From Acidimicrobiales bacterium (GTDB taxonomy: Bacteria; Actinomycetota; Acidimicrobiia; Acidimicrobiales; Palsa-688), in the NCBI GenBank assembly GCA_036378675.1, contig DASUWA010000046.1, positions 1-64,000 on the forward strand: a DNA stretch of 64,000 nt, written 5' to 3'. This document shows positions 5,717 through 24,862 of this stretch, piece by piece. Below the pieces are notes generated by a model. That model worked only from the letters and a program-made list of their open reading frames with translations, did not search any database and was not told the DNA's origin. The position numbers and the translations under genes were made by a program. How positions within the stretch are numbered: position 1 is the first letter of the stretch; every line of letters begins with the position of its first letter.

Positions 5717-7441
5717 CTAGCGCGCGCCGCGCAAGAGTCTGCCGGGCAGCGCTCCGGTTGCCTCTCCCGACTTGAAGATCACCTCTCCGGCTTTCACGCT
5801 CCACTCGTAGCCTTCCGAGCGCTGCACCAGCCGGGTGGCGCCGCCGGGTAGGTCGGCAGCGACTTCCGGCCGGCGCATACCGATCTTGGCGGCGTCGATC
5901 ACGTTGACATCGGCGACGCACCCGGGAACGAGCCTGCCTCGGTCCGACAGTCCGTACAGATCCGCGGTGGCCGACGTGATCTGCCGAACCGCCTCCTCAA
6001 CAGGCAAGCGCCCATCCCGGCGATCCCTCGCCCAGAAGCTCAGCATGAAAGTCGTGGTCGACGCGTCGCAGGTCTGGCCCGCGTGGGCGCCGCCGTCGCT
6101 CAGCCCATACACGGTGGCCGGATGAACGAGCATCTCTCGCGTCGCTTCGAGGTTCCCGTCGCTGTAGTTGAGCACGGGCGAATTCAGGAGCTGCCGCCCC
6201 TCGTCTTCCATCAACAGATCCAGGAAGGTCTGCCACTTGTCTAGACCTCGTGCCGCGGCGATTCCCGCCACGCTGTCCGCGGGGCCCGGCTCGTAGTTCG
6301 GTGGATCGCCAAGGAGATATGTCCGTTCCGCCGACATGAATCCCATGACGAGTGCGTTCCCGTCGAGGCCTCTGGCGTCCTCGACCAGGCGCGCCTTGAG
6401 CTCGGGGCTGGCTCTCAGCCTGTCGACCTGGTCCTTCCAGGGAAGCAGCCCGATACCGGAGGCGCCCCATGTTGGGGTGAACGCGAACGGGTGGAACGTC
6501 TGGAAGCCGAGGAGAATGGAGACCGTCCGGGCGGTCACTTGCGGCCGGATCGGCACGCCGGCGGCGAGAGCCTCTGCCGCCATATCTAGCAGCTTGCGCC
6601 ACTGGTCCGGGTCGTTGTTGTTCTGGTTGAGAGCAAACGAGATCGGGCGACCGGTCTCAGCCGCCAAGCGACGCATCCAGGCGACCTCGCGCTCGGGCGC
6701 GGCGAGATCCTCGCCCAGTGCCCCGGCCGCCGCCAACTCGAACACGCCGGCACCCAACTCTCCCAGCACGCGACCGATGCCGAACAGCTCGTCCTCGGCA
6801 GCGAATGTCCCCGGCACCGGCTCTCCGTCGATGGCCCGGTGCGCCAGAGTCCGGCTCGTCGAAAACCCCAATGCGCCGGCGCTGATCCCCTCCCTGACCA
6901 GGGCCGCCATCGCCTGGACGTCCTCGCCGGTCGCGGGCTCGTTGTGCGCGCCTCGTTGCCCCATCACATAGGCGCGAACGGCGCCGTGCGGTACTTGGGT
7001 TCCGACGTCCAGCGCCTTTGGCAGCCCGTCAAGTGCGTCCAGGTACTCGGGAAAGCTCTCCCAAGCCCATTTGATCCCGGTAGAGAGGGCCGCACCCGGG
7101 ATGTCCTCCACGCCTTCCATGAGTCCGATGAGCCAGTCCCGCCGGTCAGGATGGCATGGAGCGAAACCCACCCCACAGTTTCCCATCACCACCGTCGTGA
7201 CACCGTGCCAGCCGGTTGGGGTCAGCCACGGATCCCACGTCACCTGCCCGTCGTAGTGCGTGTGAACGTCGACGAACCCCGGAGTAACCAGGGCTCCATC
7301 CGCATCGATCTCCGTCGTGGCCGGCTCATCGACCCTGCCGACGCAGGTGATCAACCCACCGTCGACAGCTACATCCGCTGTCCGTGGAGGGGCGCCGGTC
7401 CCATCGACGACAGTTCCCCCGCGTACGACGAGATCGTGCAT
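5717..7441 (-). CDS. Amidohydrolase family protein (N-acyl-D-amino-acid deacylase-like)
   Basis: 574 residues from ATG 7441 (MHDLVVRGG). A much longer in-frame extension upstream is antisense to the neighbouring SDR and is discarded. The family is recognised from GTVVDGTG near the start, the metal-binding FVDVHTHYDGQ, GNCGVGFAP, and C-terminal SDGGAHAG followed by GRLVPGCVADVNVID. This is the amidohydrolase-3/D-aminoacylase layout common in mycobacteria and acidimicrobia. Actual substrates of these actinobacterial members are mostly unknown, so D-aminoacylase activity should not be assumed. Confidence 0.8.
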   Translation of the reverse strand: MHDLVVRGGTVVDGTGAPPRTADVAVDGGLITCVGRVDEPATTEIDADGALVTPGFVDVHTHYDGQVTWDPWLTPTGWHGVTTVVMGNCGVGFAPCHPDRRDWLIGLMEGVEDIPGAALSTGIKWAWESFPEYLDALDGLPKALDVGTQVPHGAVRAYVMGQRGAHNEPATGEDVQAMAALVREGISAGALGFSTSRTLAHRAIDGEPVPGTFAAEDELFGIGRVLGELGAGVFELAAAGALGEDLAAPEREVAWMRRLAAETGRPISFALNQNNNDPDQWRKLLDMAAEALAAGVPIRPQVTARTVSILLGFQTFHPFAFTPTWGASGIGLLPWKDQVDRLRASPELKARLVEDARGLDGNALVMGFMSAERTYLLGDPPNYEPGPADSVAGIAAARGLDKWQTFLDLLMEDEGRQLLNSPVLNYSDGNLEATREMLVHPATVYGLSDGGAHAGQTCDASTTTFMLSFWARDRRDGRLPVEEAVRQITSATADLYGLSDRGRLVPGCVADVNVIDAAKIGMRRPEVAADLPGGATRLVQRSEGYEWSVKAGEVIFKSGEATGALPGRLLRGAR

Positions 7442-8423: not shown

Positions 8424-9833
8424 CTAGAGCGCGCTGCGAACCTCCCAGAGGTCAGGGAACGCGGGCCGGAAGAGGGTCGATCGAAGATAGGCCGCCCCCG
8501 GCGACCCACCAGTCCCGGATTTGTCGCCGATGGTCCGTTCGACCATCTTCACGTGACGGTACCTCCACTCCTGAAGTCCCTCGTCGAAGTCGACCAGTCG
8601 TTCGGCGACTTGGGCGGGTTCTCCGTCGTCGCGGTACACCTGGAGCAGGACCGCTTGGATCTCTTTGGAAGTTACCCATGCTTCGGTGAAATCTCGGTCC
8701 AGCAACCGGGAAGGAACGAGATATCCCTGCAGTGAAAGGAAGCGCAGAAATGAATCGAACAGCGCGGGCACCTTCATTGCTTCGCTGATCCGCGCTGACG
8801 CCTTGGGGTCGTTGTCGTAGGCCTCGAGCACGTGTTGGTCCCGGCGACCGAGCAGGGCTTCGAGTTCCCGGAACTGCGCCGATTGGAATCCGCTCGAAGC
8901 CTCAAGTCGCCCGCGAAAACCGGTGAACTCCCGCGGGGTCATCGTCTCCAAGACGTCTATCTGCGCTACCGCGACTTTCAGGATGGTGAGCATCCTTCGA
9001 AGCGTGTGCAGCGAATGAGCGGTGTTGCCGGCCTCGAGTTCGATTTGGAGATGTCTCAGCTCGTGCAGCAGTTCCTTGAACCACAGCTCGTAGACCTGGT
9101 GAATGATGATGAACAGCATCTCGTCGTGTTCGTCGGAACGAAGATGCTGCGCAGAGAGAATCTGATCCAGGGCAAGGTAGCTGGTGTATGTCAATGCAGG
9201 CGACGACGCCGCAAGCGAGCGGATCACCTCTTCGTCGTTCAACTGGCTGAAGTCGTCGTAGAACTGTCCGATCGCCGCGAAGGTGCGGGGCGACAGAACG
9301 CTGACGGTTTCGTCCGCGGCACTGGTAAAGCGCTGCTCCCAGCCCAGCGGAGCGACCGGCGCCGCAACCACGACACGCGAGGCCCCTTCGGCGCGGGCGA
9401 CCAGGCTGGCGGCAAGCGCCGTCGAACCAGTCGCGATGCCGTCGTCGACGATCACGGCGACCCTGCCTTCGAGCGGAATACGCGGTCGCCCGTCGCGCAG
9501 GACCCTCGCCCTTCTCTGCAGCTCCTCGCGTTCGCTGTCCTCCACGGCCGCGAGCTGGTCCCTGGATACCGCAGCGTGGCGGATGACGTCTTCGTTTTCG
9601 ACCCTCACGCCGTCCTCGCCGATGGCCCCCATGGCCAGCTCGGGTTGGTAGGGCACCCCCAGCTTTCGCACCAGGATGACGTCGAGGGGGGCCTCGAGTG
9701 CTCGGGCGATCTCGGCTGCGACGGGGACCCCACCCCGTGGGAGGCCGAGAACTACGACCGGCTGGCCGCGCAGGTGCGAGAGGCGTTCGGCCAGAAGACG
9801 TCCTGCCTCTGCCCGGTCGTGGAAGGTCGCCAC
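8424..9833 (-). CDS. Fusion: phosphoribosyltransferase (COG1926 type) + tryptophan 2,3-dioxygenase
   Basis: A single 469-residue frame from GTG 9833. Residues 1-208 form a complete phosphoribosyltransferase: GLPRGGVPVA (29-39) and the PRPP loop VIVDDGIATGSTALA (127-141), ending in the usual FYDDFSQLNDEEV. From about 213 (LTYTSYLALDQIL) to the end lies a complete tryptophan 2,3-dioxygenase: distal His245 in IIIHQVYELWF, substrate region FTGFRGRLEASSGFQS, proximal haem ligand His427 in YRHVKMVERTIG, and TGGS (441-444). TDO opens the indole ring of Trp to N-formylkynurenine. Both halves look intact and the junction has no Met. I know of no established role for this fusion. The gene follows an acyl-CoA dehydrogenase gene by 19 bp on the same strand. 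Confidence 0.85.
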   Translation of the reverse strand: MATFHDRAEAGRLLAERLSHLRGQPVVVLGLPRGGVPVAAEIARALEAPLDVILVRKLGVPYQPELAMGAIGEDGVRVENEDVIRHAAVSRDQLAAVEDSEREELQRRARVLRDGRPRIPLEGRVAVIVDDGIATGSTALAASLVARAEGASRVVVAAPVAPLGWEQRFTSAADETVSVLSPRTFAAIGQFYDDFSQLNDEEVIRSLAASSPALTYTSYLALDQILSAQHLRSDEHDEMLFIIIHQVYELWFKELLHELRHLQIELEAGNTAHSLHTLRRMLTILKVAVAQIDVLETMTPREFTGFRGRLEASSGFQSAQFRELEALLGRRDQHVLEAYDNDPKASARISEAMKVPALFDSFLRFLSLQGYLVPSRLLDRDFTEAWVTSKEIQAVLLQVYRDDGEPAQVAERLVDFDEGLQEWRYRHVKMVERTIGDKSGTGGSPGAAYLRSTLFRPAFPDLWEVRSAL

Positions 9834-9852
9834 CTCCGCCGGACGCCTCCAG

Positions 9853-11124
9853 TTACCTCTGCCTCTGGTATCTCGCTATTTCGGCGCGTCCGACGACCAT
9901 GTGATGCACCTCGTCGGGACCGTCCGCCAGACGGAGTGTTCTCTGGGCCGTGTACATGTCGGCGAGTGGCGTCCACTGCGAAACTCCCGTCGCACCGTGG
10001 ATCTGGATTGCCTGATCGATGATCTGGCACACCCGTTCTGGCACCATTGCCTTCACCGCGCTAACCCACACCCTCGCGTCGGCGTTGCCCATGAGATCCA
10101 TCGCCTTTGCAGCCTTGAGAACCATGAGACGCATCGCCTCGATCTCTATCCGGGCGCGCGACACCCATTCCGTGTTCTTCCCCAGGGCGATTATTGGCTT
10201 GCCGAACGCCTCCCTGGATAGGCCCCGCTCCACCATGAGCCTCAGGGCCTTCTCTGCGGCGCCTACGGACCGCATGCAGTGATGAATCCTGCCCGGACCG
10301 AGGCGCAACTGGGAGATCTCGAATCCTCTGCCCTCCCCGAGGAGGATATTCTCCTTGGGGACGTGGACATCTGTGAAGCGCAAGTGCATGTGCCCGTGAG
10401 GGGCGTCGTCGTGCCCGAACACCAGCATCGGTTCCACTACCTCGACGCCGGGAGTGTCCATGGGCACCAGGATCTGGGACTGCTGTAGATGGGGCGCGGC
10501 GTCAGGATTGGTGCGCACCATCACGATCATGATCTTGCAGCGGGGGTCTCCGGCCCCGGAGATGTAGTACTTCTCCCCGTTGATAACCCACTCCTCGCCG
10601 TCCAGCACCGCGGTGCAGGAGATGTTGCGGGCGTCCGATGAAGCAAGCTCCGGCTCGGTCATCGCGTAGGCCGACCGGATCTCACCAGCGAGCAGCGGTT
10701 CGAGCCATTCCTTTTTCTGCGCGGGTGTACCGACCCTCTCCAGCACCTCCATGTTTCCTGTGTCCGGAGCCGAGCAGTTGAGACACTCCGACGCGAGCGG
10801 GGACTTTCCGAGCTCGAAGGCGATGTACGCGTAGTCGAGGTTGGCGAGGCCTTCGCCGGTGTCGGCGTTCGGGAGGAAGAAGTTCCACAGGCCTTCCGCC
10901 TTCGCCTTGTTCTTGGTCGCCTCGAGCAGGTCCAGCTGCCCGGGCGCGAAGCTCCACCGGTCGGCGTGGCCCTCGCCGAGCGCGAAGTACTTCTCCGACA
11001 TGGGCTCGACCTCTTCCACGACGAACCTCTTCACCCTCTGCAGCAGCGGGCGGGCCTTCTCTGAGATCGACAGGTCGTACAGCTCTCCGCCGAAGTCGTC
11101 GGTGTTGAGCGGGTTCGCGGGCAT
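9853..11124 (-). CDS. Acyl-CoA dehydrogenase (ACAD10/11-like)
   Basis: 423 residues from ATG 11124, preceded by AGAGGAAGG. It contains the FAD/substrate motifs YAMTEPELASSDARN and WVINGEKYYISGAGDP, and the C-terminal IQIHGATGVSQWTPLADMY region. The N-terminus and motif spacing fit the long-chain ACAD10/11-like subgroup of actinobacterial FadE proteins. It catalyses alpha,beta-desaturation of acyl-CoA with electron transfer to ETF; chain specificity is unknown. It is the first gene of a pair with the phosphoribosyltransferase-TDO fusion and divergent from a second acyl-CoA dehydrogenase over 157 bp. Confidence 0.88.
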   Translation of the reverse strand: MPANPLNTDDFGGELYDLSISEKARPLLQRVKRFVVEEVEPMSEKYFALGEGHADRWSFAPGQLDLLEATKNKAKAEGLWNFFLPNADTGEGLANLDYAYIAFELGKSPLASECLNCSAPDTGNMEVLERVGTPAQKKEWLEPLLAGEIRSAYAMTEPELASSDARNISCTAVLDGEEWVINGEKYYISGAGDPRCKIMIVMVRTNPDAAPHLQQSQILVPMDTPGVEVVEPMLVFGHDDAPHGHMHLRFTDVHVPKENILLGEGRGFEISQLRLGPGRIHHCMRSVGAAEKALRLMVERGLSREAFGKPIIALGKNTEWVSRARIEIEAMRLMVLKAAKAMDLMGNADARVWVSAVKAMVPERVCQIIDQAIQIHGATGVSQWTPLADMYTAQRTLRLADGPDEVHHMVVGRAEIARYQRQR

Positions 11125-23595: not shown

Positions 23596-24840
23596 TCAGG
23601 CGGCGACCAGACTCACCGGCAGGTGCTTGATGCCGCCGATGAAGTTCGACCGCAGCCGCGACGGTGTACCGACGGCCTCTACCGACCGGACCCTTGATGT
23701 CAGCTCCTCGAACAGGAGCTTGATTTCCATCCGGGCCAGATTCGCCCCGAGGCAGTGGTGGGGACCTCCGCCTCCGAAAGCGATGTGATCGTTGGGCTGC
23801 CTGGCGATGTCGAAGGAGAACGGATCGGAGAACACGTCCTCGTCTCTATTGGCGGACACGTACCAGATGCCAACCTTCTCGCCCGCTTTCAGCTGGTGTC
23901 CCTTGTAGTCGAGGTCGGCGGTCACGTTCCGCCTGAAGTACATCACCGGGGATGCCCAACGGAGGATCTCCTCGACCGCTGTGTCGATCAGCTCCGGCTT
24001 GGCTTGGAGCAGCGCGTACTGCTCCGGATTTTCAAGGAAAGCGTTCATCCCATGGGAGATGGCGTTGCGGGTGGTCTCGTTTCCCGCGACCGCAAGCAGC
24101 AGGAAGAAGAGGTTGAAGTCCAGCGCGCTGAGTTGGTCGCCATCGACGTCCGCCGACAGGAGCTTGGTGATGATGTCTTCGCGCGGCTCCTCCCGGCGCC
24201 GGTCGGCGAGCTGCTGCGCGTACATGAACATCTCGATCTGGGCCTCTTGAACCTTCTCCTGGGAGACGGCGTACTCAGGGTCCTCGCTGCCGATCATCCG
24301 GTTCGACCAGTCGAAGACCTTGTGCCGTTCTTCGAGCGGTACCCCCATCAGCTCCGCGATCACCTGCAGGGGAAGCTCCGAGGCAACGTCGACGACGAAG
24401 TCGACCTCACCACGCTTTATCGCGTCCTCCACAATCCTTGCCGTCATATCCCGGATGTGAGGCTCCAACATCCCGATCATCTTCGGGGTGAACCCACGGT
24501 TGACCAGCCGGCGGTACCGGGTGTGGGCCGGCGGATCCATTGTCAGCATCAGGTTCCCGCCCTCGCCTACCCACTCCGCTTCGACCTCTGGTTCCTCGAG
24601 CCCGACCACGCCCCCGCGGGCCTGTTCCGACGAGAAGTGCTTGGCATCCCTGCCGATGGCGACGACGTCGTCGTACTTGGTGAAGACCCAGAAGCCGGGG
24701 CCAGCCGGCTCGGGGTGGCGGAAGATCGGAGCGTTCGCACGCAGGTGGGTGAACCATTCATGCGGGATGCCTTCGGTGAAGCGATCCCGGTCGAGCAGGT
24801 TGATCTCCGCCATGAGTTCGGTCGTGCGCACATCGGCCAT
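23596..24840 (-). CDS. Cytochrome P450 (CYP125/124/142-like, putative steroid or branched-lipid hydroxylase)
   Basis: 414 residues from ATG 24840, preceded by GGGGAGGGA, which fixes the start. It has the I-helix oxygen-binding AGNETTRN, the ExxR helix EEILRW, FRRNV and the haem loop FGGGGPHHCLGANLAR with Cys363 as thiolate ligand. The C-terminal SRLRSNFIGGIKHLPV resembles CYP125/CYP124 tails. Mycobacterial relatives hydroxylate the terminal carbon of cholesterol or methyl-branched lipids. A KstR-like operator lies 23-36 nt upstream, and tetR follows in the same operon. The exact substrate is inferred. Confidence 0.88.
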   Translation of the reverse strand: MADVRTTELMAEINLLDRDRFTEGIPHEWFTHLRANAPIFRHPEPAGPGFWVFTKYDDVVAIGRDAKHFSSEQARGGVVGLEEPEVEAEWVGEGGNLMLTMDPPAHTRYRRLVNRGFTPKMIGMLEPHIRDMTARIVEDAIKRGEVDFVVDVASELPLQVIAELMGVPLEERHKVFDWSNRMIGSEDPEYAVSQEKVQEAQIEMFMYAQQLADRRREEPREDIITKLLSADVDGDQLSALDFNLFFLLLAVAGNETTRNAISHGMNAFLENPEQYALLQAKPELIDTAVEEILRWASPVMYFRRNVTADLDYKGHQLKAGEKVGIWYVSANRDEDVFSDPFSFDIARQPNDHIAFGGGGPHHCLGANLARMEIKLLFEELTSRVRSVEAVGTPSRLRSNFIGGIKHLPVSLVAA

Positions 24841-24862
24841 TGGATCCCTCCCCAGACGTAGC

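Follow-up and report, generated by a model that had tools for sequence, protein, structure and literature searches.

The fused reading frame and its neighbourhood

The window, by which we mean the entire 64,000-nucleotide stretch analysed here, comes from an Acidimicrobiales bacterium whose draft genome (G000; 4.14 Mb in 75 contigs) is 97.3% complete, with a contamination estimate of 0.77%. On its reverse strand, at 8424..9833 (-), lies an open reading frame of 469 amino acids, with a GTG start and no internal stop, that joins a phosphoribosyltransferase (PRTase) to a tryptophan 2,3-dioxygenase (TDO). These coordinates are exactly those given in a preliminary description of the locus, and the claim made there that one uninterrupted frame holds an intact PRTase and an intact TDO agrees with the frame itself, the Pfam matches, the structures and the conserved columns. 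Searched against its own genome, the sequence returns one match, covering residues 1-469 with 0 stops inside and an open frame of 483, and neither half has a second match anywhere in the genome (E 0.001). The reading frame is real and confirmed in the draft assembly; two genes split by a stop are ruled out by its continuity. The GTG start at 9833 is situated 19 bp past the stop codon of an acyl-CoA dehydrogenase (ACAD) gene (9853..11124 (-)), which lies upstream on the same strand, and is preceded at a long spacing of 12 nt by a ribosome-binding-like site, GGAGG (9846..9850 (-)). On the basis of the 19 bp spacing, ACAD and the fusion probably form a two-gene operon.

A genome of the same family (G001) encodes an ACAD and a TDO that are, respectively, 88% and 71% identical to those of the window and are separated by 4.8 kb on one strand, which suggests that the window TDO resides in a related neighbourhood. 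Among the same-family genomes represented in the TDO tree (G001, G012, G013, G018, G022 and G023), only G001 falls within the clade of the window; its PRTase is found on a different contig from its TDO. The genes between ACAD and TDO in G001, named by eye as P450-, LanC-, FAD-enzyme- and RidA-like, have no counterpart beside the fusion, the only similarity being a P450 with 30% identity at 23608-24843. The RidA-like gene (L123:3410-3817, by eye) directly precedes the TDO gene of G001, the stop of the former overlapping the start codon of the latter. A close ACAD occurs in 20 further genomes apart from G000 and G001; their fetched flanks (at most 1.5 kb, with loci L143, L150 and L157 not long enough to include the downstream gene) gave neither TDO nor PRTase, so that the synteny is that of G001 alone. 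A conserved TDO operon was considered as a clue to function and rejected, the neighbours differing among 11 loci (crude gene calls).

The PRTase half and its partners elsewhere

Residues 1-208 (9210..9833 (-)) constitute the PRTase part, which phmmer, fold match and conserved columns assign to the type I PRTase fold in a version resembling TT1426 of Thermus thermophilus (PDB 1WD5). Pfam PF00156 is passed at residues 9-160 (49.7 bits against a cut-off of 26.3), the 1WD5 sequence aligns to residues 4-204 in phmmer, and the model of this half matches the 1WD5 structure with Z 24.2 and rmsd 2.2 over 182 aligned residues at 46% identity. At 62 columns at least 95% of 25 fetched relatives agree, and the window retains all 62. 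Two loops stand out among the conserved columns: VVLGLPRGGV (residues 27-36; 9726..9755 (-)), which presumably has a role in pyrophosphate binding, and VDDGIATGST (residues 129-138; 9420..9449 (-)), which we take to be the PRPP-binding loop and in which V129, D130, D131, G132, A134, T135, G136 and T138 each reach the same 95% level of conservation among the 25 relatives. TT1426 has the full-length fold and the loops in common with the window PRTase, but is a stand-alone chain of 208 residues without a C-terminal partner, whereas the window PRTase carries a TDO. We assume that this half is of the COG1926 type (the TT1426 group), a subfamily for which we know of no acceptor; no open-licence PubMed Central paper containing the term COG1926 was found. 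The PRTase half is predicted to bind PRPP and could possibly serve as a regulatory domain.

The usual partner of this PRTase is of a different kind. Among 26 distinct relatives measured (the window left out, and L136 counted as the same as L008), 21 are encoded by ORFs exceeding 400 aa, with an alpha/beta hydrolase as fusion partner, and the remaining 5, of 212-235 aa, stand alone. All 21 long proteins carry a part similar to a hydrolase encoded by G000 itself, and a Pfam scan of nine long and one short PRTase gave an alpha/beta hydrolase or DLH match in 9/9 long proteins, over the curated cut-off in 7/9. These fusions, present in Acidimicrobiales and other actinobacteria, have the same N-terminal PRTase (54-68% identity to the window) but a DLH-like hydrolase as C-terminal partner, whereas the C-terminal half in the window is a TDO and its chain contains no hydrolase domain. 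Examples are L125:5317-6666, L008:772-2127 and L127:5988-7325, and this arrangement predominates in the fetched PRTase relatives; open-licence papers yielded no account of what it does. Seven further PRTases comprise three with a hydrolase (G250, G180, G132), three with none in the fetched stretch (G389:C39, G085, G010) and that of G001, from whose genome the hydrolase is absent. The PRTase of Rv2030c from Mycobacterium tuberculosis presumably belongs to the same subfamily as that of the window. Rv2030c combines a PRTase domain with membership of the erythromycin esterase superfamily and is reported to be hypoxia-induced; it thus represents another partner choice of the PRTase domain, differing from the window in its partner and in having no TDO (PMC4410610).

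In G000, a stand-alone alpha/beta hydrolase gene is located on a contig of 4,217 bases (C29:265-921; L177:265-921), preceded by an in-frame stop; the contig itself gave no match to the PRTase. Searched in 11 relatives, this hydrolase was recovered from 4, always within a PRTase fusion, and was not found in the other 7 (E 1e-15). The hydrolase tree is unresolved, and in the PRTase and TDO trees neither half has a firm position; a former union of the C29 hydrolase and the window PRTase in one protein does not emerge from them, and C29 could be a contaminant contig. Paralogous amidohydrolase-like genes (named by eye) occur near the fusion in the window (5717-7441 (-)) and near the stand-alone hydrolase (L177:1920-3629 (-)), with 68.5% DNA identity in the best piece of 410 columns.

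The TDO half

Residues 209-469 (8427..9209 (-)) form the TDO part, as judged by Pfam, a TIGR03036 scan, phmmer, fold match and conserved columns. The Pfam family PF03301 is passed with 207.8 bits against a cut-off of 34.9, in two stretches of which the best spans residues 210-336; bacterial TDOs align in phmmer to residues 213-468, and fold matches to them reach Z 25.1-27.1 at 35-38% identity (XcTDO, Z 27). The window retains every one of the 68 columns at which 95% or more of 104 fetched relatives agree. Both this count and that for the PRTase draw on the best-scoring loci that were fetched, after removal of the window locus L001, the duplicates L002, L003, L037, L040 and L136 and the near-duplicate L016, a few duplicates such as L067/L121 staying in. 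Counted on the phmmer alignment to 2NW7, H245 (9099..9101 (-)), R307, H427 (8553..8555 (-)) and T441 correspond to XcTDO positions 55, 117, 240 and 254, which we take to be the distal histidine (His55), the substrate arginine, the haem ligand (His240) and the threonine of the GTGG loop, and all four positions fall in conserved columns. Y216, Y219 and L220 of the N-terminal arm (9174..9188 (-)) align to XcTDO 24, 27 and 28 and are likewise conserved; the diagnostic positions of TDO, in the haem pocket and the arm, are all present.

The published structures give these positions a context: human TDO has His76, the proximal His328 and, from the neighbouring subunit, Tyr42, Tyr45 and Leu46 (PMC5071832); MarE, a relative of TDO, has His55, Arg118 and, again from the neighbouring subunit, Tyr24, Val27 and Leu28 (PMC11904535); and the N-terminal arm lines the active site of the adjacent subunit (PMC5071832, PMC11904535). 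XcTDO (PDB 2NW7/2NW8) and stand-alone actinobacterial TDOs have the fold, the N-terminal arm and the His, Arg and haem-ligand positions of the window protein but, unlike it, no catalytic domain in front, and human TDO has just a short N-terminal extension (the arm residue is Tyr42) where the window protein has a PRTase. No description of a TDO with a catalytic N-terminal partner was found in the open-licence PubMed Central literature searched. The NCBIfam equivalog TIGR03036 scores 285.4 bits on the TDO half, below its cut-off of 390.7; five stand-alone TDO relatives scanned with it also reach just 250-296 bits, so the low score looks like a trait of the subgroup, and the half is not assigned to this equivalog. 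As the only TDO found in G000, this half is taken to be its working TDO, and the fused protein is predicted to assemble as a tetramer with PRTase modules on the N-terminal arms.

Some TDO homologues (L032, L033, L034, L120, L122, L066 and L068-L070), whose hosts include some Acidimicrobiales and Amycolatopsis, give matches of ~630-740 bases, not 780. In G096, G040 and G034 the match is interrupted between residues 329 and 352 or 391 of the fused protein, approximately where MarE is without helices F and G. These shortened homologues might represent a non-TDO subfamily.

The junction

Start comparison, PRTase lengths and the structure model place the junction between the PRTase end and the TDO N-terminus at residues 205-213 (9195..9221 (-)). 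At the join the window reads ...EEVIRSLAASSPALTYTSYL, with the motif (P)ALTYxSYL directly behind the PRTase part. In the stand-alone TDOs of relatives the start codon (chosen by eye) mostly lies 1-13 codons before this motif, which indicates that the join falls at the TDO's own start. The join looks natural, at the natural ends of both domains. In-frame start codons near it occur at residues 198 (TTG), 203 (GTG), 214 (TTG) and 239, none preceded by a ribosome-binding-like site in a simple scan; within residues 150-300 the scan scored a single internal start, ATG 298 in the TDO core, with 4 bases at a spacing of 3. In the AlphaFold model (pTM 0.57) 245/469 residues have pLDDT of at least 90 and both cores are folded; pLDDT is below 50 over the join (residues 181-233), block means in the TDO half are below 60 at residues 291-320 and 431-450, and further weak stretches are 299-303, 310-315 and 438-443. 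The two halves differ mildly in third-position G+C (PRTase part 0.81, TDO part 0.72; ACAD has 0.84), and in both trees the end branch of the window exceeds the median (0.52 versus 0.34, and 0.59 versus 0.38).

Distribution of the fusion

A search for the same fusion in related genomes, as proposed in the preliminary description, recovered it unbroken in G000 and in no other genome of four draws, one of 99 relatives and the others from the order (397 genomes), the phylum (396) and the class (395); the draws overlap, and each includes G000, which alone has an uninterrupted match over both halves. The first draw begins with the genus and family, with no same-genus genome among its members. In the three larger draws, scoring covered the four best candidates in most genomes (for the 397, among the matches listed); a second fusion should have ranked top in them, and a divergent one could be missed. 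Plasmids yielded 239 matching records out of 72,556, with 0/239 covering 80% of the query, and a scan of contig collections gave no fusion among the best 80 of 575 confirmed stretches, all 80 being TDO matches, none of which extends beyond residue 182 into the PRTase half. Of the loci retrieved up to L136, the window locus is the only one with both halves.

Relatives with adjacent PRTase and TDO genes split by a stop, which the preliminary description had named as evidence against a fusion, were not found among these loci or among the matches elsewhere that appeared to reach across the join, and no PRTase-like sequence stands in the open frame before the stand-alone TDOs in any of the 42 loci with at least 60 open codons in front (drawn from 109 TDO rows, the window's and some duplicates included). 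Several candidates were rejected on inspection. The match at 136-469 in G079, with a TAG, contains a TDO only, with PRTase absent upstream; the apparent cross-join matches turned out to be PRTase plus hydrolase with no TDO match in the stretch (G250, G180, G132), PRTase with neither a hydrolase nor a TDO match in the stretch (G389:C39, G085, G010), or PRTase only (G077). No PRTase-TDO protein was found in the open-licence PubMed Central literature, which lends weak support to the earlier statement that no enzyme with this pairing has been described.

Tryptophan breakdown and NAD

A kynureninase (TIGR01814, 271.7 bits against a cut-off of 246.4) is encoded on another contig of G000 (C31:55951-57117). 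TDO and kynureninase, the pair that marks kynurenine catabolism to anthranilate, are therefore both present, and the expected route leads from tryptophan through N-formylkynurenine and kynurenine to anthranilate; formamidase (TIGR03035) gave no match in G000, the control matching 7/14 genomes, none over cut-off. The preliminary description had envisaged a link between tryptophan breakdown and NAD precursors, a proposal that the gene content does not bear out. No match to 3-hydroxyanthranilate dioxygenase (TIGR03037) was obtained in G000, which is moderate evidence of absence because the control matched in only 1/14 genomes, none over cut-off, and NadB is present over cut-off; on these two grounds G000 likely makes NAD from aspartate. 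Quinolinate and anthranilate PRTases have folds other than type I, the fold that the fold search assigns to the PRTase half; their absence from the 50 matches listed for that search in itself excludes nothing.

Origin and possible role of the fusion

The observations are best accounted for by a genuine, lineage-specific gene fusion, yielding one polypeptide with an N-terminal PRTase and a C-terminal TDO, which we consider probable. A false join in the draft, bringing together PRTase and TDO genes of different places or organisms, is unlikely. It would be compatible with an assembly of 75 contigs and a contamination estimate of 0.77%, with the restriction of the join to a single genome among those searched, with the unequal third-position G+C of the two halves and with the presence on the 4,217-base C29 of a hydrolase, the usual partner of the PRTase. 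The reading frame nevertheless runs on through the join, which coincides with the natural ends of both domains. The missing PRTase does not lie at the start of C29 (the contig gave no PRTase match, and an in-frame stop precedes the hydrolase), and neither half has a leftover match elsewhere in G000. Moreover, ACAD and TDO are near neighbours in the same-family G001, so that a chimeric assembly would require two wrong joins flanking the PRTase.

A real fusion could also have a haem half with non-TDO chemistry, like MarE, the 2-oxindole-forming haem monooxygenase of the same superfamily, and the missed curated cut-off of TIGR03036 and the shared fold (8VYY, Z 16.9; PMC11904535) would be in keeping with this. 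We regard it as quite unlikely: bacterial TDOs are closer to the window half (identity 35-38%, Z 25-27) than MarE is (19%, Z 16.9), the helix F/G region aligns to XcTDO without a gap, whereas MarE is without helices F and G (PMC11904535), and G000 has a kynureninase. More unlikely still is a separate TDO made also or mainly by internal initiation at GTG 203 or TTG 198/214, for which the in-frame codons at the junction exist but lack ribosome-binding-like sites in the simple scan, ATG 298 being the only internal start scored in residues 150-300. Metabolic coupling, with the PRTase adding phosphoribose to a product of the TDO branch such as anthranilate or kynurenine, is highly improbable, even with both domains in one chain and an anthranilate-making kynureninase in the genome. 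The PRTase relatives are fused to hydrolases, not to tryptophan enzymes, 3-hydroxyanthranilate dioxygenase gave no match in G000 whereas NadB is present, and we know of no TT1426-type PRTase with an anthranilate- or kynurenine-like acceptor.

Under the preferred reading of a genuine fusion, a PRTase gene, whether it stood alone or had been separated from its usual hydrolase partner, would have lost its end and a TDO gene its first few codons, giving one polypeptide; partner exchange is the simplest story for the pairing. The TDO half would feed N-formylkynurenine towards kynureninase and anthranilate. Y216, Y219 and L220 lie seven residues past the preceding helix of the model (200-209, low confidence) and, being arm positions, tie the PRTase to the arm that builds the active site of the neighbour. 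Human TDO accommodates ~40 residues before the arm, which makes steric tolerance of the fusion plausible. Joined directly to the arm lining the tryptophan pocket of the neighbouring subunit, the PRTase may modulate TDO activity; alternatively, it may simply have been carried along and co-expressed. That it senses PRPP (or nucleotide) status and, by way of the arm to which it is joined, opens or closes the tryptophan pocket of the adjacent TDO subunit is a doubtful proposal; a silent passenger is just as conceivable. PRPP gating, if true, would couple amino-acid breakdown to PRPP, the precursor for nucleotides and tryptophan synthesis.

What is new is the combination of two known families, met in G000 only among the sequences searched. 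The fusion, seen in one draft genome, is very probably real, and at present it stands as a new domain architecture, interesting but no more than that yet. If real, it would constitute a new two-enzyme architecture for TDO and would indicate that a poorly understood PRTase family exchanges partners. The function of the PRTase module is a question raised already by its hydrolase and esterase fusions, and a TDO arm tethered to a PRPP-binding domain would offer a direct handle on it.
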